Assembly: GCF_013393385.1 (NCBI RefSeq)
Contig: NZ_AP023239.1
Span: 4,712,001 to 4,776,000 of the forward strand
Origin: Paenibacillus sp. URB8-2
Lineage (GTDB): Bacteria > Bacillota > Bacilli > Paenibacillales > Paenibacillaceae
Length of the DNA stretch: 64,000 bases
Direction: 5' to 3'
Both the position numbers and the translations under genes were made by a program. Below, in pieces: positions 9,455 through 21,474 of this stretch. Each line of letters begins with the position of its first letter. Position 1 is the first letter of the stretch. The notes under the pieces are model-generated. The model was not told the origin of the DNA and did no database searches. It saw only the letters and a program-made list of their open reading frames with translations.

Positions 9455-9655
9455 TCAACGTTTCTTTCTTGTTCGAATCCAATGTACCAACAGAAATATA
9501 AAGGCGATAAGCAATATAGCGCAGATTAAGAAAGTTTTTATATAGCCGCCGACCTGCAGCAAGGAATCGCTTTGGAAAGATAGCGCCGATATGCTCATGC
9601 ACGTTAAACCCATTCCTATAAAAAAAATGGCAATCAGCCACTCTATTTTTTTCAT
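9455..9655 (-). CDS. small two-helix membrane protein coupled to a sensor kinase
   Basis: A 66-residue protein with two predicted membrane helices (residues 6-25 and 36-58) and a basic tail WIRTRKKR. Its ATG overlaps the stop codon of the upstream histidine kinase gene in an ATGA arrangement, which implies translational coupling and roughly matched amounts. I do not recognise the family. From position it may be an accessory subunit or modulator of the kinase, but this is inference only. The longer overlapping reading frame at 9438-9701 is a frame shadow. Confidence 0.7.
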   Translation of the reverse strand: MKKIEWLIAIFFIGMGLTCMSISALSFQSDSLLQVGGYIKTFLICAILLIAFIFLLVHWIRTRKKR

Positions 9656-11061
9656 GCATTTCCCTCCCCAAATTGAGATTGCAGGACAAACCGGATTTCA
9701 AATCGGGTGCCTTCTCCTATTTTACTGGAAACATGTATTTCTCCTTTTTGCAGTTCTACCAATTTCCTCACTATAGATAATCCTAATCCGGTGCCTCCAA
9801 ATTGACGGGAACGGGACTTTTCCACTCTATAAAACCGTTCAAAAATATAGGGAAGCTCATCAGCGGGAATCCCCATTCCGGTATCCTCTACAATAAATGT
9901 TACAGAATCGGCTTCATACAACAAATATACCTTAATGCCTCCCCGCTCTGTATAACGAATAGCATTTTCAAGCAGGTTCAGTACAATCTGCTCCATCCGT
10001 TTACGGTCTGCCCATACGCATGAGGTCGCTCCGGATTGCTGCATCGATAGACTTAAATTTTTTTGTCTGGCCTTCAGTTCAACCTTCCTGACCGCGTGTT
10101 CAGCCAATTCGGACAAATCGATCCATTCAAGAACAAGCGTGATTTTGCCTTCTTCCATCTTTGCGAGATCAAACAAATCATCGACCAGATGCTGAAGCCG
10201 GACCGATTCTTCATAGATAATATCCAGGTATTGATTTTTCTCCGCTTCGGTCTCATAAAGCTCCTCCTTCACCACCCGGGAATAACCCTCCAGATAAGTG
10301 ATCGGCGTACGCAGCTCATGAGATATATTGGCAAAAAACTCCTGGCGTGTATCCCGGTAACGCTGTAGATCAACCGCTAGATCATTGATTGCTTCGGCTA
10401 AGGCGCCCATTTCGTCTCTGCTTTTGAGTGCCAGTCTCGTTTCCAGCTCACCGGCGGCAATTTTGCGGGTCGCCTGCTGCATTTGCAGTAACGGACGGGA
10501 TAAAAATTGGGCGATAATCCATGTGATCCCAAGGGCCAGTAAGAATGCGCCCATTCCGGAGAGGGTGAGTAAATTTCGCACACCGGACAACGATTTCTCC
10601 ATCTCTTCGGTAGAAGACATGACATAAAGGGCGGAAGCAACAGATCCTCCTTCATGTATGGGCTGCCCCGATACAAAATAACGGTGTCCTGCAGGATCCT
10701 CGTACAGTAAGTTCACCTTTTTTCCGGAAAAAATCTTATGCAGGTCAGAGGCCCGGATAAAGGTTCTGTCCGATGAATCGTGGACTCCCGAATGAAGGAT
10801 CACCGCTCCATCCTGCCGAATATTGAAAATACTTACATTTGAGAACTCGGCAAAGGTCTTCATGGTTTGCTCAGACGTCGTATCGGTGGAGTCGGCCATT
10901 ACCGTAAAGTGGGAAGTAAGCTCCTCCGTGTCGGTCTGCATGCGGGCATAATAATAGTTAGTGAACATACGGTCAATGGTGAATCCCAGAAATACCAACA
11001 CAATCAGGAATACGGTGATGATAATCAGACCAAGCTTCAATCCGATCCGGTTGTTTCTCAT
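9652..11061 (-). CDS. membrane sensor histidine kinase (HAMP/HisKA/HATPase)
   Basis: A 469-residue OmpR-class sensor kinase. Helix 1 (about residues 8-30), an extracytoplasmic sensor of about 130 residues with no recognised domain, helix 2 (about 165-185), HAMP, then the H-box ISHELRTPITYLEGY with phosphorylatable His near 248, N-box NLLENAIRYTERGG, G1 EDTGMGIP and G2 GGTGLGLSIV. All catalytic motifs are intact. Its start overlaps the stop of the response regulator gene by an ATGA, and its stop overlaps the next small membrane gene in the same way. The signal is unknown; the layout resembles envelope-stress or antibiotic-sensing kinases of Bacillota. Confidence 0.93.
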   Translation of the reverse strand: MRNNRIGLKLGLIIITVFLIVLVFLGFTIDRMFTNYYYARMQTDTEELTSHFTVMADSTDTTSEQTMKTFAEFSNVSIFNIRQDGAVILHSGVHDSSDRTFIRASDLHKIFSGKKVNLLYEDPAGHRYFVSGQPIHEGGSVASALYVMSSTEEMEKSLSGVRNLLTLSGMGAFLLALGITWIIAQFLSRPLLQMQQATRKIAAGELETRLALKSRDEMGALAEAINDLAVDLQRYRDTRQEFFANISHELRTPITYLEGYSRVVKEELYETEAEKNQYLDIIYEESVRLQHLVDDLFDLAKMEEGKITLVLEWIDLSELAEHAVRKVELKARQKNLSLSMQQSGATSCVWADRKRMEQIVLNLLENAIRYTERGGIKVYLLYEADSVTFIVEDTGMGIPADELPYIFERFYRVEKSRSRQFGGTGLGLSIVRKLVELQKGEIHVSSKIGEGTRFEIRFVLQSQFGEGNA

Positions 11062-11765
11062 TCCTGTTCTCCGGAAACAAAAAACTTATAGCCAACTCCC
11101 CATACCGTTTGAATAGGGTTGTAAGTCATTCCCGCCTTCTGCAGTTTTTCACGTATATTCTTGATATGGGTATCCACCACCCGGACTTCGCCCTCATAAT
11201 CATATCCCCATAACCTTTCAACGAGTTCCTCCCTGCTGAAGGCGCGCTGCGTGCTTTGGGCTAATAAAGCCAGCAGATCGAACTCCTTCGGGGTAAAATC
11301 GACAAGCTCCTCTTGAATACGAACCTCCCTCGCGTCGGGGAATATGATCATTTGCGGAAATTCAACTGTCCACTGCTGAGGCTGCGAGATTTGTGTGATC
11401 GTTGATCTGCGGATTAACGAATATATTCGGGCCAGGAGCTCTTCGGAATCAAAAGGCTTTGTTAAATAATCGTCCGCACCTATCCCCAAACCATGAATCT
11501 TGTCCTTGGTTTCAGTACGTGCCGTCAGCATTAAAATCGGAACCATTTCGGTTTCTCTGATCACCTTGCATACTTGCCAGCCATCCATATCAGGCATCAT
11601 GACATCAAGTAAAATAATATCAAAGGAATGCTTCTTGACCATGGATAACGCCTCCAGTCCTGTAGCCGCCTCCTTAATCTGGAATCCCTCCTTCATCAAA
11701 TAAATCCGAAGTAGGTTCCTCATATTCCATTCATCATCGACAATTAACACTTGAAGTCTCGACAT
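11058..11765 (-). CDS. OmpR/PhoB-family response regulator
   Basis: A 235-residue response regulator. The receiver domain has the acidic pair DDE near the N-terminus, phospho-acceptor Asp54 in LLDVMMPDMDGW, and the conserved Lys in LTKPFDSEE. A C-terminal winged helix (VDFTPKEFDLLALLAQ through VWGVGYKF) binds DNA. The track start could be extended to 11813, but an AAGAAGGTGGG site lies just before ATG 11765, which also begins exactly at the receiver fold. It heads a three-gene coupled unit with the kinase and a small membrane protein. Confidence 0.93.
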   Translation of the reverse strand: MSRLQVLIVDDEWNMRNLLRIYLMKEGFQIKEAATGLEALSMVKKHSFDIILLDVMMPDMDGWQVCKVIRETEMVPILMLTARTETKDKIHGLGIGADDYLTKPFDSEELLARIYSLIRRSTITQISQPQQWTVEFPQMIIFPDAREVRIQEELVDFTPKEFDLLALLAQSTQRAFSREELVERLWGYDYEGEVRVVDTHIKNIREKLQKAGMTYNPIQTVWGVGYKFFVSGEQE

Positions 11766-11815
11766 TATGCCCACCTTCTTCGTTCTCTTAGTTTTATTTA
11801 AATGAAGTTTCAATA

Positions 11816-12256: not shown

Positions 12257-12467
12257 TCCAAACTAATTGCCTCCCATATGCTTTGTTATTTAATACTCTT
12301 ATTGTAAGAAATGATTATGGAGAAAATATGTTGAAAATTTGAGGTAACCGTGTACTTGAGTTGCGTTTGCTAATTTATTAAAAAACAAGCTGACTATCCG
12401 CCCATTAGGCATGTACGTTAACCCAAGTCTCATACGATACAATATAAACAAGCAGGGGGTTGCACTC

Positions 12468-13049
12468 ATGTCAAACTGGATAATCGCAGCTATCTTTTAT
12501 GCTTTTATTATTGGATGGTCATGTGGCTTTATTTATCGGTTCCGTTCATCTGTTACGGGTACAATTGCAATGATTACGCCAATGGTAAGCGGGATGATTG
12601 TCGGCTTTGGCGGCGGGACGATCGTTGGAGCCGGATTTTCATCGAATTTGTTCCTGTCATTGTTGATCAGTGTGCTAACAGGCATACTCGCAGGGGGGAT
12701 AATTGGCTCTTTAATCCATATAGGAGCATTTCTAAACGGGGCTCTATCCGGTATGATGGCCGGTTTGATGGGGGCGATGCTTATTGTTATGCTGCCTTCG
12801 TCCGAGTGGAATCGAGTGATTTTTATTTTTATGGTCGTTGGCGGTTTTCTCCAATTTGTTCATACCCTTATGCTCCAAGGTCAGATTGAGGAATCTGTGC
12901 TGAAACGAGCCGCTTGGATCTTTCGTACTCCATCACTTATGTTTCTGGCTATCGCTGCTTTAATTATTCTTTACTCCGCCGGCAGCTCATCCGATACTTT
13001 AATTCCTAACCCTAAGCATCCAAACCATTCTATGATAAACATGAAATAA
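12468..13049 (+). CDS. six-helix membrane protein of unknown function
   Basis: About 193 residues, almost entirely hydrophobic, with six predicted membrane helices rich in Gly and Ala (for example VGFGGGTIVGAG and NGALSGMMAGLMGAML) and a short polar C-terminal tail containing His and Met. The ATG at 12468 follows AGGGGG by 8 bases; an earlier ATG at 12411 lacks a ribosome site. Its 3' end overlaps a convergent hypothetical gene by about 80 bases. Small glycine-rich membrane proteins like this can be channels or carriers, but I make no assignment. Confidence 0.7.
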   Translation: MSNWIIAAIFYAFIIGWSCGFIYRFRSSVTGTIAMITPMVSGMIVGFGGGTIVGAGFSSNLFLSLLISVLTGILAGGIIGSLIHIGAFLNGALSGMMAGLMGAMLIVMLPSSEWNRVIFIFMVVGGFLQFVHTLMLQGQIEESVLKRAAWIFRTPSLMFLAIAALIILYSAGSSSDTLIPNPKHPNHSMINMK

Positions 13050-15064: not shown

Positions 15065-15529
15065 ATGGGTTCTTCCTCACCGCAATCCCATACGGTTACC
15101 ATTACTTTGCCTGAAAATACTCCGCAGACGATTCTTGCCTATTTGGAACAATTAAAACAGTCTGGCGAAAGAACATTCAGCAACAAAATTGCGCAGTTGT
15201 TGATCGAATCGCTAAATCAGGCATGCCTAAAGGAAAAACCGCATGTTGTCATTCCGCTGCCGGAGCATCTTACCGAGGAACAGCAGGATTGGTTCAACCA
15301 TCCCTTCACAAAGCAACTTTTAATGAACTGGATTTTGCAATTGACTAGCGGCATGTCGTCCATTTCTTCTTCCAATTGCTTATCGCCATCCCTAGCGCAT
15401 CCTGAAATAAGTGAAGTCCCCCTGCGCACAGAATCGGATAATACGGCGTCTCCATCTAACCATGATTCCTTTCGGATCAGCACTTCCTACCATACCAAAC
15501 TCGTAGGTTTCTTTCTTGATGAAGATTAG
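15065..15529 (+). CDS. ParR-like ribbon-helix-helix adaptor
   Basis: A 154-residue protein. Residues 9-50 read as a ribbon-helix-helix: strand HTVTITLP, helix TPQTILAYLEQLKQ, then FSNKIAQLLIESL. This is the DNA-binding half expected of ParR, which links centromere DNA to ParM filaments. The C-terminal 70 residues are Ser-rich and low in structure, ending KLVGFFLDED; in known ParR proteins the tail contacts the ParM filament. It lies 11 bases behind parM with an AGGTGG site. Family membership is inferred from the fold pattern and from gene order, as ParR sequences diverge strongly. Confidence 0.65.
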   Translation: MGSSSPQSHTVTITLPENTPQTILAYLEQLKQSGERTFSNKIAQLLIESLNQACLKEKPHVVIPLPEHLTEEQQDWFNHPFTKQLLMNWILQLTSGMSSISSSNCLSPSLAHPEISEVPLRTESDNTASPSNHDSFRISTSYHTKLVGFFLDED

Positions 15530-16231: not shown

Positions 16232-17878
16232 CTATTCCGGTTTGTTTGCTGCATTGGAGCCGGGAGCGTAAGCGGGCTTATAATCGGTGTAAGCCAATTG
16301 TTGCGCCATTCCTCCCGCTGCATGGTGAAGTTCATGGCAGTGAATCATCCAGTTTCCGGGATTATCGGCCTTAAAGGCGACAACGATCTTCTCGCCGGGT
16401 TTAACCAGAACGGTATCCTTCATGATCGCACTTTCTACTTTAACCCCGTTTTTCTCAAGGACCTGGAAGAAGTGACCGTGTACATGCATCGGATGATCCA
16501 CTGTGCCTTTATTCTCAAACGTCAGCTTTACATTATCGCCGGTTTTCACCTGAAGAGCCGAGAGTTCTGAAAAGACTTTATCGTTGATCGTATACACTTG
16601 TTGGTTCCCGTTCATCTTGGAATTCAACACGGCAGTATACTCCAGTGCAAATTTTTGGACTTTGCTTAATTCAGACTCGGCAGGCTTGCCGTAATTATAA
16701 AGATCAAACGCGGTTAATTGATCGTGCTGTACTTCCATTTCTTCGCCCTTGCTTCCCGCTACCTTAACCGGAATAACCAATTGATCGTTATATTTATTGT
16801 CATCATGCGCATCAATTGTAAAATCCTTTTGCGAGACAATATTCAACTCCACATCATAGCGTTCCCCGGGAGCGATGGTTACGATTTGATTTTGGAGGGT
16901 GGCCGGCTCTGTTATATCCTGTCCATCCGTACTTACTACCCGGAACTCTCCAGGAATGTGGATTCCATGGGAACGATATCCGGCGTTAATAAACCGCAAG
17001 CGAACGGTGTCTCCCACTTTAGTTTCCAGAGGCGTAATCAGCGAACCGGATTTACCGTTAACCGTATAAATATTGTACATGGTAGCCATCATTTCTTCTT
17101 CACTCATGCTTGCCGATCCATGAGCGCTGTGAGCGTCTCCGCCTTGATTCATCCATTCATCCAGAATTAATGTAAAGTCTTTATCCGGCTGTTCGGATTG
17201 CTTCGGCTCCACAACGAGAGCGCCGTAGAGTCCCTTGTCTACCTGCTCCGAGCTTTCCTGGTGAGAGTGATACCAATACGTTCCCGCCACATCGGCTGAG
17301 AACCCGTAGGTATAGGTTTCACCAGGCTTAACCGCATCTTGTGTAATCCCGGGCACACCGTCTGAACCTGCGGGTACAGGATAACCATGCCAATGAATAG
17401 TGACAGGTACATTAAGTTCATTTTTCAGCGTAATCTTTACAAAATCTCCTTGAGTAACACGGATTTCCTGGCCAGGGACCGTGCCATTGTAAGTCCAGAC
17501 CGCTTGGGTCGCGCCGGATGCTAATTCCCAATTGCTTTCCATAGCTGTCAGAGTAAAACCTTTTACAGCCTGCCCGGGTTTAGGCTGCGGCAAAGCCGCC
17601 GTTCCCTCTTGAACCGTACCCGCAGTGGCTTCAGGGGAAGGAGAGGGGCTGGGGCTGGGGGGAATTGCTCCCTCCGTACTGCCCGTTGCAGCTGTATCGG
17701 CCATTACATGTGAACTATGGTTCATCGGTTGGTTTGCTGCGCTGGCATCTTCTTGAACTATACTGCCCGTAACCGCCCCACCTTTAGAACCCGAAGTTTC
17801 AGTTATAAAGATACCGGCTGCCGTCCCGCCGATGATCAAGGCCAAGAAGAACAATACAATAAGAGTTTTATTGCTCAA
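16232..17878 (-). CDS. membrane-anchored or secreted multicopper oxidase
   Basis: A 548-residue multicopper oxidase. After an N-terminal hydrophobic segment and a Ser/Pro/Thr-rich linker (about residues 30-105) come three cupredoxin domains with all copper motifs intact: TIHWHGYPVP, YWYHSHQES, HPMHVHGHFF and the type 1/type 3 motif IHCHELHHAAGGM. The last ligand position is Met, as in laccase/CueO-type enzymes. It oxidises metals or phenols while reducing oxygen to water outside the membrane. The start is a TTG at 17878 with GGAGG 8 bases upstream. It is the last gene of a seven-gene run with a cytochrome b and several small membrane proteins, which suggests electron transfer to or from the membrane. 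Confidence 0.93.
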   Translation of the reverse strand: MSNKTLIVLFFLALIIGGTAAGIFITETSGSKGGAVTGSIVQEDASAANQPMNHSSHVMADTAATGSTEGAIPPSPSPSPSPEATAGTVQEGTAALPQPKPGQAVKGFTLTAMESNWELASGATQAVWTYNGTVPGQEIRVTQGDFVKITLKNELNVPVTIHWHGYPVPAGSDGVPGITQDAVKPGETYTYGFSADVAGTYWYHSHQESSEQVDKGLYGALVVEPKQSEQPDKDFTLILDEWMNQGGDAHSAHGSASMSEEEMMATMYNIYTVNGKSGSLITPLETKVGDTVRLRFINAGYRSHGIHIPGEFRVVSTDGQDITEPATLQNQIVTIAPGERYDVELNIVSQKDFTIDAHDDNKYNDQLVIPVKVAGSKGEEMEVQHDQLTAFDLYNYGKPAESELSKVQKFALEYTAVLNSKMNGNQQVYTINDKVFSELSALQVKTGDNVKLTFENKGTVDHPMHVHGHFFQVLEKNGVKVESAIMKDTVLVKPGEKIVVAFKADNPGNWMIHCHELHHAAGGMAQQLAYTDYKPAYAPGSNAANKPE

Positions 17879-17893
17879 GCCTCATTCCTCCAG

Positions 17894-18541
17894 TTACATC
17901 ATTCCCATGTTGCTGCCATTGTTCATGTTTCCGCCGTTGTTCATGCTGCCGCTGTTGTTCATATTGCCGCCGTTGTTCATATTGCTGCCGCTGCCCATAT
18001 TCATCATGTCCATGTCATCCATCATGCCGCCCGAGCTGCCGGAGGTTCCCATGCTGCCCGAATTACCCATATTCATATTAGGCTGCATGCCGCCCATGTA
18101 CTGCTGCTGCATCTGCATCATATCCTGCTGCAGCTGGTTCATGCGCTGCATCATTTGATTCATTTGATCCATCGGCACAGTGCCGCTCATTGTTCCCTGC
18201 ATTGTCGCTCCGAATCCGGCAGTTCCGTTAACATGACTGTTATGCTGACTATTCGTTGACGTAACTGTACCGGAGTTTGCAGGATTGGTTACATTAAGCA
18301 ATACTACAGAGATAATTAAACCGACGAACGAGAAAACCGCCAACTTTAACCAACCATTTGTTTTCATTATTAATATTCCTCCAATTGTACCCGTTGTTTT
18401 ACTTCCTCTTTGTTCGCTTACACCGCTAATATAGCCATACGTTTTTTTTAACAGATAATAAATTGCAAAGAGCAAACCAACGACGAGAAGAATCAGCAGG
18501 GATGCCATATACAAGTTTCCAAAGGCTCCGAGAACATTCAA
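17894..18541 (-). CDS. two-helix membrane protein with Met/Asn/Gly-rich repeat tail
   Basis: About 215 residues. The best start is a TTG at 18541 whose codon overlaps the previous stop (TTGA), with GGAGG 7 bases upstream; ATG 18574 lies inside the preceding gene. A helix (about 10-30), a linker, a second helix (about 75-95), then a polar tail with MDQMNQMMQRMNQLQQDMMQM and many MNNGGN/MGNSGS units. Such Met-rich tails bind Cu(I) in known copper proteins, so copper handling for the adjacent oxidase is inferred. An internal ATG at 18367 has its own GGAGGA site 9 bases upstream, so a shorter second product beginning MKTNGWLKL may be made, or two genes have fused. Confidence 0.75.
   Translation of the reverse strand: MNVLGAFGNLYMASLLILLVVGLLFAIYYLLKKTYGYISGVSEQRGSKTTGTIGGILIMKTNGWLKLAVFSFVGLIISVVLLNVTNPANSGTVTSTNSQHNSHVNGTAGFGATMQGTMSGTVPMDQMNQMMQRMNQLQQDMMQMQQQYMGGMQPNMNMGNSGSMGTSGSSGGMMDDMDMMNMGSGSNMNNGGNMNNSGSMNNGGNMNNGSNMGMM
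17919..17990 (-). repeat. tandem 18-bp repeat, four copies
   Basis: Four near-identical 18-base units (17919-17936, 17937-17954, 17955-17972, 17973-17990) encode alternating six-residue blocks of the MNNGGN and MNNSGS kind in the Met-rich tail. Copy number of such in-frame units can change by slippage. Confidence 0.8.
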
Positions 18542-18918
18542 TTTGTGTTCCTCCGTTTGCTTGATTTCGGCCATACGATCGCAAGAAATAAGGCCCCTGC
18601 TAGAATTACAGGCAGTGTAAATAGAAGTAATGCCGTTGTTATAAGATGAATGGCATACAATGTCCCAGTTTGGTCATGGTGCCCGCTATGCTCGCCATTG
18701 CCTGATGACACTTCCACACTGTCCATTACACCGAGAGTGAACAAGTCCGGCACGGTTGTATTCCCCAGGATTTCATTGCTCATCATGTCTGCCATGGAAG
18801 CATCCATTTGCGCGGCATTTTCTGCTTTATTGCTCCAGGAAAGCGCCAGCACAAGCATGATGATGACTGCAAACACGGAGCTGAGCTGCCAGAACGGCTC
18901 TTTTTGTTTGTTGAACAT
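18538..18918 (-). CDS. two-helix membrane protein with Met/His-rich loop
   Basis: A 126-residue protein with helices at about residues 12-29 and 88-113. Between them is an extracytoplasmic loop with MDASMADMMSNE and NGEHSGHHDQT, rich in Met and His and so a possible copper site. ATG at 18918 follows AAAGGTG. The gene ends in a TTGA overlap with the next frame and begins 3 bases after the previous one, so it is part of the oxidase operon. I recognise no family. Confidence 0.75.
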   Translation of the reverse strand: MFNKQKEPFWQLSSVFAVIIMLVLALSWSNKAENAAQMDASMADMMSNEILGNTTVPDLFTLGVMDSVEVSSGNGEHSGHHDQTGTLYAIHLITTALLLFTLPVILAGALFLAIVWPKSSKRRNTN

Positions 18919-18921
18919 GGG

Positions 18922-19221
18922 TTACACCTTTCTTCTGCACCGTACGTAGACGCCGCCTGCTATGCTGATCGCTAATAGAGGAAATGCGAATTGAACGCTC
19001 TCAAACAATAACCTCTGCACATTTGCATCTTCTTTCACTTGCATGGACAATCCCATCAGGGAGGTTTCCATGGCCTTCATCATACCCATCATGAAGCTCA
19101 TAGCCTCCTGCTCGGTCGGTCCGAAGCGGAACATCGAGATTACTATTGCGCCAAAAGCAAAGAAAAATGAGGTAGTCACAAACCAGATAAACAGCTTATA
19201 CCCTTTTTTCTGCATCCACAT
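18922..19221 (-). CDS. small two-helix membrane protein
   Basis: A 99-residue protein with helices at about residues 8-30 and 74-94 and a Met-rich segment SFMMGMMKAMETSLMGLSMQ between them. GGAGGG lies 9 bases before ATG 19221. It sits between the cytochrome b gene and the next two-helix protein in a tightly packed run. The layout matches its neighbour (two helices around a Met-rich loop), so the two may form a complex. No family recognised. Confidence 0.72.
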   Translation of the reverse strand: MWMQKKGYKLFIWFVTTSFFFAFGAIVISMFRFGPTEQEAMSFMMGMMKAMETSLMGLSMQVKEDANVQRLLFESVQFAFPLLAISIAGGVYVRCRRKV

Positions 19222-19245
19222 GACAAAGGCCCCTCCCTTCGTTGA

Positions 19246-19710
19246 TCATCTTGCCTTCCGTTCCTTTTTCTTAGGCCACTTTAATGCATGGGACTTCATA
19301 TAGATGTGCCAGATCACGCTCGCTGCTGCCAGATAAGTCAATTTTTCATGAATCCATAGTGTAAAAGCCGCTGCGGCGTGGTTGCTGTCCATGAAGAGCC
19401 AGATAACAGCTCCGGTAATAATAAAAATCAGAGTAGTAATGAAGGTAAAGAGTCCATAACCGGTTGGGCTGAATACAAGCCATGGCTTTTTGGTCTTATC
19501 CCGTCTCAGGATACGAATAATTTCGTAGATGATGACCATCAGGGTCAGCAGGACATACACAACCGCTGCCAGACGGTGCACTAAATCCGCCGTTGCAATA
19601 TCATACTGCATCACCCAACCATACTTCGCTCCTGCCATTGCAATTCCGCTAAGTGCCAAGATGGAGAACACAAGCGCCCATAGCCAGTGAAGGATAATAT
19701 CAAACTTCAT
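19246..19710 (-). CDS. cytochrome b561-like membrane protein
   Basis: About 154 residues with four predicted membrane helices. Histidines placed in helices (IILHWLW, LVHRLAAVVYVLL, LWIHEKLTYLA, IWHIYMKSHALK) match the pairs that bind heme b in small di-heme cytochromes such as cytochrome b561 and formate dehydrogenase gamma subunits. It would move electrons across or within the membrane, and with the multicopper oxidase two genes further on suggests an electron path. The start is uncertain: ATG 19710 lies 12 bases behind GAGG, while ATG 19719 is too close. Confidence 0.8.
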   Translation of the reverse strand: MKFDIILHWLWALVFSILALSGIAMAGAKYGWVMQYDIATADLVHRLAAVVYVLLTLMVIIYEIIRILRRDKTKKPWLVFSPTGYGLFTFITTLIFIITGAVIWLFMDSNHAAAAFTLWIHEKLTYLAAASVIWHIYMKSHALKWPKKKERKAR

Positions 19711-19734
19711 TGCCCGCATCAACCTCAATCCGTG

Positions 19735-20307
19735 TTAGTCTTTGTTTGTTTCCGGTTCATCCGGACTTGCCTTAGTGGTATGAGGTTTCTCCTCAATTGA
19801 ATTGGATTTCATTTCGTTTCCTGCTGTAAGTACAGCCCCAGTGGAAGAGGCGACAGGCGTTTTATTGATATTTTGCTTCACATAACTGTACAAGAAAGCG
19901 ATCAAAGCTACTACAAAAAGAATAGTCAATATTTTTACAAAAAATGTTAATATTCCCGAAACGCTCCAAGCGGATACAATCCCCATTCTGTTCGGATTAA
20001 ATCCACCATTCATCAAAATGCCCAGCAGATACAAAACGATGATTACGCCTATAAACGTAGCAGCCAGGACAAAAATGGTTTTTAACATCGGATCATTGCT
20101 AATCACCTGTTTTCCTTTGTTATAGGACTCTTTAAAGTAAGCATTTTTAAGCCAAACTGCAAGTCCAACCACAAGGCTAATAATCAAAGCCACCAACAGT
20201 AATTGAGTTACGGTGGAAAGTATTCCGCTGATTACATTCCCCGTGCCTCCATAAGTCCCCATATTCACCGAGCCTTGAACACTTCCGGACATATCCATAT
20301 CCATCAT
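19735..20307 (-). CDS. three-helix membrane protein, operon member
   Basis: A 190-residue protein beginning MMDMDMSGSVQ, a Met/Asp-rich extracytoplasmic N-terminus, followed by helices at about residues 30-52, 78-98 and 115-140 and a hydrophilic C-terminal tail. GGAGGAG lies 10 bases before ATG 20307. It is 23 bases after the preceding gene of the run and 24 bases ahead of the cytochrome b gene. Unknown function; it looks like a membrane subunit rather than an enzyme. Confidence 0.72.
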   Translation of the reverse strand: MMDMDMSGSVQGSVNMGTYGGTGNVISGILSTVTQLLLVALIISLVVGLAVWLKNAYFKESYNKGKQVISNDPMLKTIFVLAATFIGVIIVLYLLGILMNGGFNPNRMGIVSAWSVSGILTFFVKILTILFVVALIAFLYSYVKQNINKTPVASSTGAVLTAGNEMKSNSIEEKPHTTKASPDEPETNKD

Positions 20308-20330
20308 TTCTTGTTTCTCCTCCTTCTAAT

Positions 20331-21269
20331 TTAAATATGTTCTTCCGTATTAGCCGGTTCCGGTCTCGATACAACCAAGCTTCGGATCATTCCAATTAAC
20401 CCGACCACCAATAAGACAATGAACAATACGGTAATCGTCGTCATGAGCCCTGGAATTTGAATGCCCCTGATGCTAAACCCATTCGATTGGTTTGGGGGAA
20501 CCATATTGGATGCTTCCGTAGCAGAGAGATTCCGAGCCTGTACAACGGTTTGTTCAATTTCATTGTTGACCCACCGGTTCAGGCTATCCATTTCCATAAC
20601 GGTTTGCGCCATTTGATAAATGACATTGTTCGTTTTCCGGATATCACCACCCCCGTTATCAGCTGCAGCCGGGGCTTCAGAAACGTTGGACAGGAATAAA
20701 TCTTTGGCATCATTCAGCTTAAGATATACGTTGTTAAGCGCTGTTTGGCTCTGAACCAACAGGCTATAACGGTTTACATACATCTGATAAGTTGGAGTGG
20801 CCGATTCGGTAAACCCGGTCTGAGATTTCATCGTTTGATCCAGCTGATTTACCAGATATACACTCTCAGACAAAAGGTAAATGCCTCTGTTATAGTTCTG
20901 TAGCTGTACCGGATTTTGCACACCGGCCTGACCACCAGTTCCACCTGATTCACTGTTACCGTAAGTTGCTGCGCTCGCCGGTATAGCGTAAGGGTATTCC
21001 GACATCAAATCCGCCAATTGCTTAACCGTTTGATTCGCGCTTGATACCTTCTTCTGCAGTTCATCAATAGGATTCACATTCATACTCGGAGTTGCCTCCG
21101 ATTGCTGCATGGCAGAGTGTTGGCTCTGCGCGCTTGTTTCATTTACCGAGGTTCCAAATTGATTCCAAGATACGAGACCGCTTTTAGAAGCGAACCATCC
21201 GATATATCCAAGGCCGGATAAGATAATGGTCACGAGAACGAAACCAATGATGCTGCGAATTGCTTTCAA
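20331..21269 (-). CDS. membrane-anchored extracytoplasmic helical protein, first gene of the oxidase operon
   Basis: About 312 residues. An N-terminal helix (about 5-27) and a C-terminal helix (about 282-304) flank a long extracytoplasmic part that is mostly helical and rich in Gln, Asn and Thr. It has repeated NQL/YNR segments that look like a coiled bundle. No catalytic motif is visible. The start is a TTG at 21269 with the strong site AAGGAGGTGA 6 bases upstream; the longer frame from 21362 is not supported. As the first gene, after a structured leader, it may be the scaffold of the complex. Confidence 0.75.
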   Translation of the reverse strand: MKAIRSIIGFVLVTIILSGLGYIGWFASKSGLVSWNQFGTSVNETSAQSQHSAMQQSEATPSMNVNPIDELQKKVSSANQTVKQLADLMSEYPYAIPASAATYGNSESGGTGGQAGVQNPVQLQNYNRGIYLLSESVYLVNQLDQTMKSQTGFTESATPTYQMYVNRYSLLVQSQTALNNVYLKLNDAKDLFLSNVSEAPAAADNGGGDIRKTNNVIYQMAQTVMEMDSLNRWVNNEIEQTVVQARNLSATEASNMVPPNQSNGFSIRGIQIPGLMTTITVLFIVLLVVGLIGMIRSLVVSRPEPANTEEHI

Positions 21270-21351
21270 AATATTCTCACCTCCTTTATGAAGAGTACAT
21301 CGATGTCTTTGCCCGTAGCTAAAGAATACCAACTCACTTTGGGGAAAGTAT

Positions 21352-21382
21352 GAAGAAACCATGAGGAAAGCATGGTTTCTTC
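21352..21382. promoter_or_regulatory. 12-bp perfect hairpin in the operon leader
   Basis: Arms GAAGAAACCATG (21352-21363) and CATGGTTTCTTC (21371-21382) are perfectly complementary with a 7-base loop. They lie between the proposed promoter and the first gene of the oxidase operon, inside a leader of about 140 bases, so the element could be an attenuator, an RNA stabiliser, or an operator for a dimeric regulator. Confidence 0.5.
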
Positions 21383-21412
21383 AAGATAATTAAAATGCAC
21401 AGCCGCTACGCA

Positions 21413-21448
21413 TGTTCCGCATTATAATTCGGAGTATGGTTTATCAAG
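21413..21448 (-). promoter_or_regulatory. probable SigA promoter of the oxidase operon
   Basis: On the minus strand TTGATA is followed after about 15 bases by TATAAT (complement of 21421-21426). The -10 is perfect, while the spacing is short. The same bases also spell TATAAT on the plus strand at 21423-21428, so the divergent nuclease gene may share this core. Prediction from motifs only. Confidence 0.4.
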
Positions 21449-21474
21449 TCTCATAATGGAGGAAATGATTGAAC

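Follow-up and report, generated by a model that had tools for sequence, protein, structure and literature searches.

Gene content of the operon

We analyzed a 64,000-nucleotide window of the genome of the soil bacterium Paenibacillus sp. URB8-2 (5.58 Mb, one contig; NZ_AP023239.1, positions 4,712,001 to 4,776,000) that contains an operon of seven minus-strand genes, g1 to g7, running from position 21269 down to 16232 of the window and joining six membrane protein genes (g1 to g6), one of them for a cytochrome b561-type protein (g3), to a multicopper oxidase gene (g7). Comparison with other genomes confirmed the operon of seven genes and its conservation, and the core of the cassette is a set of six genes, not seven. 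The gaps from g1 to g7 measure 23, 24, 24, 3, -4, and 15 bases when g1 is taken to start at TTG 21269, g3 at ATG 19710, and g6 at TTG 18541. An earlier sequence-only reading had described seven tightly packed frames with gaps of at most 25 bases and overlap, and the same packing is seen here (largest gap, 24 bases; one of -4). The range it gave, 16232..21469, holds the operon, but the 200 bases up to 21469 lie upstream of g1. The three TTG starts that it proposed are likely for g1 (21269), g6 (18541), and the oxidase (17878), each with a good ribosome site, and relatives of g6 at loci L030, L041, and L056 have Met at the same place as its start. The oxidase and g3 alone reach a Pfam cut-off among the seven proteins, and g1, g2, g4, g5, and g6 exceed no cut-off in Pfam or NCBIfam, which agrees with the earlier statement that only an oxidase and a cytochrome b were recognizable.

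The cytochrome gene g3 (19246..19710, minus strand) encodes 154 amino acids (aa) if it starts at ATG 19710 and 160 aa if it starts at TTG 19728. The whole protein scores 44.1 bits against PF01292 (cut-off, 30.1), and a four-helix fold is suggested by the predicted model and its fold matches; simple hydropathy marks three helices only. Four histidines (H14, H51, H127, and H141 in the 160-aa numbering) do not vary among the 11 aligned sequences and align with H18, H57, H155, and H169 of the gamma subunit of Escherichia coli formate dehydrogenase-N (1kqf_C; E values of 3.6e-4 for the chain and 0.026 for the stretch), which we take to be the heme ligands of that subunit. These features identify g3 as a cytochrome b561-type protein whose four histidines are expected to serve two hemes.

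The three genes that follow encode proteins with two helices each. The product of g4 (18922..19221, minus strand; 99 aa, 11.1% Met) has an outer loop in which G46, M48, M51, S54, and M56 are invariant in all 11 aligned sequences. That of g5 (18538..18918, minus strand; 126 aa, 5.6% Met and 3.2% His) carries its Met and His in the outer loop, where M42, M46, and H81 are likewise invariant (11/11). The TTG-initiated g6 (17894..18541, minus strand; 215 aa, 14.4% Met) ends in an outer C-terminal tail of 130 aa with 28 Met, a tail that is short in two aligned non-Bacilli relatives (L059 and L062). Upstream of g3, g2 (19735..20307, minus strand; 190 aa) has three predicted membrane helices and a Met-containing N terminus outside, and its nearest named relative, from Paenibacillus rhizophilus, is 92% identical. 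Hydropathy and charge predict an outside position for the Met-containing segments of g2, g4, g5, and g6, and g4 to g6 are predicted to expose Met-rich segments there, in g5 His-rich as well. The first gene, g1 (20331..21269, minus strand), encodes 312 aa from a TTG start, with a membrane helix at each end and a predicted outer helical bundle; its AlphaFold2 model, with a low mean predicted local distance difference test score of 63.9, has helices at residues 67-90, 120-149, 161-196, and 207-254, and its fold matches are generic only. Met makes up 3.8% of g1 and 4.7% of g2, against 2.9% in the mechanical frames of the window that span at least 150 aa. The five proteins had been called small and Met/His-rich, a description that suits g4 and g6, which are clearly Met-rich, and the Met/His loop of g5; g1 and g2 are weakly so, and the length and two terminal helices of g1 do not fit the word small.

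The last gene, g7 (16232..17878, minus strand), encodes a membrane-anchored multicopper oxidase of 548 aa from its TTG start, with matches to PF07732, PF07731, PF00394, and PF13473 and the copper-ligand motifs HWHG, HSH, HPMHVHGH, and HCHELHHAAGGM. It scores below the NCBIfam cut-offs of the CueO equivalog (131.3 versus 525 bits) and of the copper_res_A subfamily (207 versus 478.95 bits). Its matches to PF07732, PF00394, and PF07731 fit the three cupredoxin domains of a multicopper oxidase. The ligand motifs are present in all 12 oxidases of complete loci, a count that uses looser patterns, strict ones having missed six loci through conservative changes. A second multicopper oxidase gene of the same genome, at 4144744-4146174, was picked up as two partial matches with 59% and 46% identity.

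The cassette with and without its oxidase

Among 100 genomes of the genus, g2 is found in 18 (20 copies) and g4 in 16, all among those 18. Searches in the order with g2 (198 genomes, 43 genera; six matches) and in the class with g3 (398 genomes, 145 genera; four matches) yielded matches in Paenibacillus only. We read 20 Paenibacillus loci, the window's own included, and 12 of them, again counting the window, hold all seven genes in order, so that the gene order first seen here is conserved in other genomes. Another locus, L033, reaches a contig end within g6, and a close oxidase begins another contig of that genome. Reduced modules consist of g2 and g6 only (L035, L039, and L043) or of g2, g3, and g6 (L044). 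Close copies of the oxidase (66-100% identity) occur in 13 of the 100 genus genomes, all of them cassette carriers and all among the 16 with g4.

Three further Paenibacillus loci keep g1 to g6 open and have no intact oxidase. The gene carries an internal deletion in L032, is represented by its first 54 residues alone in L041, and has left no clear remnant in L030, where a weak 40-residue match with stops overlaps the end of g6. Pairwise ratios of nonsynonymous to synonymous substitution rates (dN/dS) for g1 to g6 range from 0.11 to 0.30 for L030 versus L031, from 0.03 to 0.22 for L041 versus L034, and from 0.08 to 0.30 for L032 versus L029, except for g4 of the last pair (0.641, from few changes); because the values are pairwise, the oxidase-keeping partner contributes to each. 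Open frames and mostly low dN/dS after oxidase loss fit a function of the six genes without the oxidase, a conclusion weakened by the contribution of the oxidase-keeping partners and by losses that are recent.

The cassette also occurs outside the Bacilli. Searched with a g3 profile, 398 genomes of the phylum gave matches in nine: the window's genome, seven non-Bacilli genomes with clear matches, and G311 with a weak partial one (E value of 4.5e-4). A g4 profile matched 7 of 378 genomes taken from that phylum, exactly the seven non-Bacilli genomes with g3 and no other. We read eight loci in these seven genomes, two of which (L062 and L063) belong to the same genus and are nearly identical. All eight have g3, g4, g5, and g6 adjacent and in this order with a g1-type gene before them, g1 being supported by BLAST in L056, L057, L062, and L063 only, and six have a g2-type gene between the g1-type gene and g3 (absent in L058 and L061). 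Links by profile comparison reach 93.9% for g1 and 97.0% for g2, which is weak by BLAST in most non-Bacilli loci; these links say less for the remaining members because the alignments include BLAST-matching ones (L062; L056). The g3 frames of genome G358 are open over 146-147 aa, and their stops fit the C-terminal end of the profile.

None of the eight non-Bacilli operons contains an oxidase. One is found nearby in three loci: a different oxidase on the opposite strand in L062 and L063, with an N terminus that we take to resemble a twin-arginine translocation signal, and a frame-broken oxidase downstream of the cassette in L059. Because all eight operons lack it, the oxidase is the accessory, and the six membrane genes g1 to g6 are the system. 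The homologues of the small membrane proteins are kept together across genomes rather than unlinked, which supports the notion of membrane genes conserved as a set, one for a heme b-type protein and others with Met-rich outer parts. The taxa surrounding the non-Bacilli matches, namely small classes and an order (10, 3, 4, and 4 genomes), added no further cassette genome, and no g3 relative was found on plasmids (one query sequence, E value of 1e-5) or on viral contigs.

CxxC zinc-ribbon-like motifs mark the C termini of six of the eight aligned non-Bacilli relatives of g2, and one of three such relatives scanned reached a Pfam zinc-ribbon cut-off. Extra g2-like or g6-like copies stand beside the cassettes at L059:8992-12484, L056:9997-10946, and L062:4107-5848, where the g2-like proteins often end in such motifs as well. 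Near the oxidase-free cassette of L056 lies a siroheme decarboxylase-type gene (L056:12418-12870), which fits heme synthesis by the anaerobic route and would suit an anaerobic host.

Control region, neighboring genes, and copper context

A 26-bp element, ATACTTTCCCCAAAGTGAGTTGGTAT (21326..21351, minus strand), lies 56 bp before g1 and is probably a promoter or operator. All 16 g1-containing Paenibacillus loci have it 53-59 bp before g1, and three of the four reduced modules have it upstream of g2 (231 bp in L035 and L039, 67 bp in L044); it was not found in the fourth, L043, nor was its pattern found in the eight non-Bacilli loci. The window holds one copy, and 100 shuffles gave none. No sigma-70 site was found at the element, and scans did no better than shuffles for promoters (8 promoter-like sites versus 11.0 ± 3.9) or terminators (8 terminator-like sites versus 5.4 ± 2.5). 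An OmpR-type response regulator (11058..11813, minus strand) and a HAMP histidine kinase (9652..11061, minus strand) are associated with the operon, relatives of the regulator occurring in 13 of the remaining 19 Paenibacillus stretches, some of which may end early, and in 5 of the 8 non-Bacilli loci. This two-component system probably controls the operon, and would do so by binding to the 26-bp element.

Two neighbors on the plus strand also recur near the cassette. The operon is adjoined by an Alp7A/ParM-like actin gene (PF22128 and PF17989; 13914-15053) with a small partner at 15065-15529. Of the other 19 Paenibacillus stretches, 12 contain a relative (78-97% identical; the overlapping L034 and L035 have one in common, and L039 has a piece only), and the cassettes of L059, L062, and L063 are also accompanied by a distant actin-like gene (25%). 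Plasmid relatives, mostly labelled ParM or StbA, are 52-60% identical among the best 15 of 44 records, the best being on pBM69. A membrane protein without a Pfam match (12411-13049) has relatives near many Paenibacillus loci, including reduced g2-g6 modules.

Genes with possible copper functions are found beside several of the loci. The g2-g6 module of L039 is adjoined by genes for a metal-sensing repressor and for an HMA-domain P-type ATPase, CopD and a fragment of a P-type ATPase lie near the cassette of L060, an HMA protein occurs at L057, and a DUF1541 protein lies near the reduced module of L044. The oxidase family is broad, with 4240 plasmid records matching g7, and we read three plasmid islands from the best 12 of these matches (47-53% identical). 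A two-component system is present in all three. On pBM69 and pPmC-142-2 (L084 and L086), copZ is beside the oxidase, accompanied on pPmC-142-2 by a heavy-metal P-type ATPase and a metal-sensing repressor. In the stretch read from the Paenibacillus sp. Cedars plasmid, the two-component system is present and no copper gene is labelled. A short tblastn match of g6 (E value of 2e-6) inside the Cedars oxidase gene looks like Met-rich sequence. By association, the cassette is probably linked to copper.

Proposed function and its alternatives

We give a probability of about 45% to the reading that g1 to g6 form a six-subunit membrane complex that handles copper on the outer side of the membrane, with a multicopper oxidase appended. 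The six proteins would make up one complex with g1 as a doubly anchored scaffold, and the Met/His segments of g4 to g6, together with the N terminus of g2, would bind copper, most likely Cu(I); for g4 to g6, copper binding is suggested by their Met and His content, invariant positions, and gene neighbors. The cytochrome g3 would exchange electrons with the menaquinone pool and control the oxidation state of the copper held by the complex; its likeliest role would be to use electrons from quinol to convert Cu(II) to Cu(I), which would enable capture. In Paenibacillus, the CueO/laccase-like oxidase would add a safety step that depends on oxygen, the oxidation of excess Cu(I). A more far-reaching proposal, which we regard as doubtful, is that the cassette represents a novel type of membrane metal oxidoreductase, linked to quinone and used by anaerobic and aerobic Bacillota, in which a di-heme cytochrome b wires menaquinone to outer Met-rich copper sites for oxygen-free control of copper redox state, the oxidase being a later addition in Paenibacillus.

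Several observations weigh against the copper-handling complex. The Cu(II)-reducing direction proposed for g3 is a guess drawn from general chemistry, in which Met-rich sites favor Cu(I) and have a high potential; the Met-rich segments could also bind silver or serve otherwise. No copper gene was recognized, by eye, by BLAST, and with Pfam scans of some frames, in L056, L058 (a 7-kb contig), or L061. The three plasmid islands match none of the profiles of g1, g3, g4, g5, and g6, and the stretch read at L085, which holds the plasmid relative of the oxidase with the highest score, contains no gene labelled for copper. In L058 to L061, g1 was identified by position, architecture, and profile, without BLAST support, and its family-wide alignment contains almost no invariant columns (two).

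The sequence-only reading had placed the point of the system in the passage of electrons from heme b to the oxidase. In such an arrangement a quinol-oxidizing heme b complex would feed electrons through the small proteins to the oxidase, forming an oxygen-reducing chain outside the cell, and the oxidase is indeed the last operon gene in the 12 complete Paenibacillus loci, retains its ligand motifs in each, and has its close copies in the genus only where the cassette is present. This account nevertheless seems improbable: the cassette stands without an operon oxidase in all eight non-Bacilli loci (three with an oxidase nearby, two without g2), and g1 to g6 persist, mostly at low pairwise dN/dS, after oxidase loss in three Paenibacillus loci. 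The oxidase is also set apart by 86-138 bases in 6 of the 12 complete loci, and oxidases about 51-52% identical to g7 occur in two genus genomes without g2. No likelier, in our estimate, is a membrane sponge that would bind and store copper or silver without any redox role, g3 serving to organize the complex. Such a sponge would suit L035, L039, and L043, where g6-type Met-rich proteins accompany g2 without a cytochrome, and L059, where g6-type proteins are tandemly repeated; it sits poorly with the invariance of the four heme-ligand positions of g3 and with its nonsynonymous divergence between two Paenibacillus clades, the lowest of the six genes (0.076; g4, 0.089).

In its Pfam score, its predicted four helices, and its four histidines at ligand positions, g3 resembles the prokaryotic cytochrome b561 family (PF01292), to which hydrogenase-1 cytochrome b, formate dehydrogenase-N gamma, and superoxide oxidase belong. 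Its operon differs in having no hydrogenase or iron-sulfur partner and, in their place, five small membrane proteins without recognized domains. The least probable of the alternatives is a superoxide-oxidase-like system against oxidative damage, in which g3 would move electrons from extracytoplasmic radicals to quinone and the Met-rich loops would act as sacrificial scavengers under copper stress.

The cassette differs from other copper-related systems with which it may be compared. CueO/laccase-like oxidases and the copper-resistance islands of Bacillales plasmids (pBM69, pPmC-142-2, and Cedars) share an oxidase with the operon but not the cassette genes covered by the five profiles. MnxEFG of Bacillus sp. 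PL-12 also combines a multicopper oxidase with small accessory proteins, which bind copper and may bind heme (PMC5622069); MnxG is far larger (139 kDa, against 548 aa for g7), and a membrane cytochrome such as g3 is not among the parts described in the accessible portion of that source. CcoG (PMC7558416) and CrpH (PMC13038864) are membrane proteins with a shown or suspected tie to copper reduction or copper-enzyme function, CrpH as a PepSY_TM protein supporting heme-copper oxidases and CcoG as the first specific bacterial copper reductase to the knowledge of the authors of a 2020 review, as far as the accessible parts of these sources describe them; their PepSY or ferredoxin-type domains are absent from the Pfam matches of g1 to g6. 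Copper import in Bacillus subtilis, as outlined in the accessible part of PMC13344008, involves a different gene set. Searches of an open-access library gave no paper that its title or the start of its abstract marks as a description of the cassette, although subscription journals or passing mentions may contain one. No known characterized complex was found in these searches, in line with the earlier remark that its author knew of no described system with this gene set. The cassette appears to be an undescribed, conserved membrane system with a heme b-type protein.

Specific bacterial copper reductases are few. Multicopper oxidases need oxygen. A heme b-type complex with Met-rich partners, conserved both with and without such an oxidase, would be a candidate means of controlling copper redox state independently of oxygen, and since some loci have lost the oxidase naturally, the contribution of each half can be tested.

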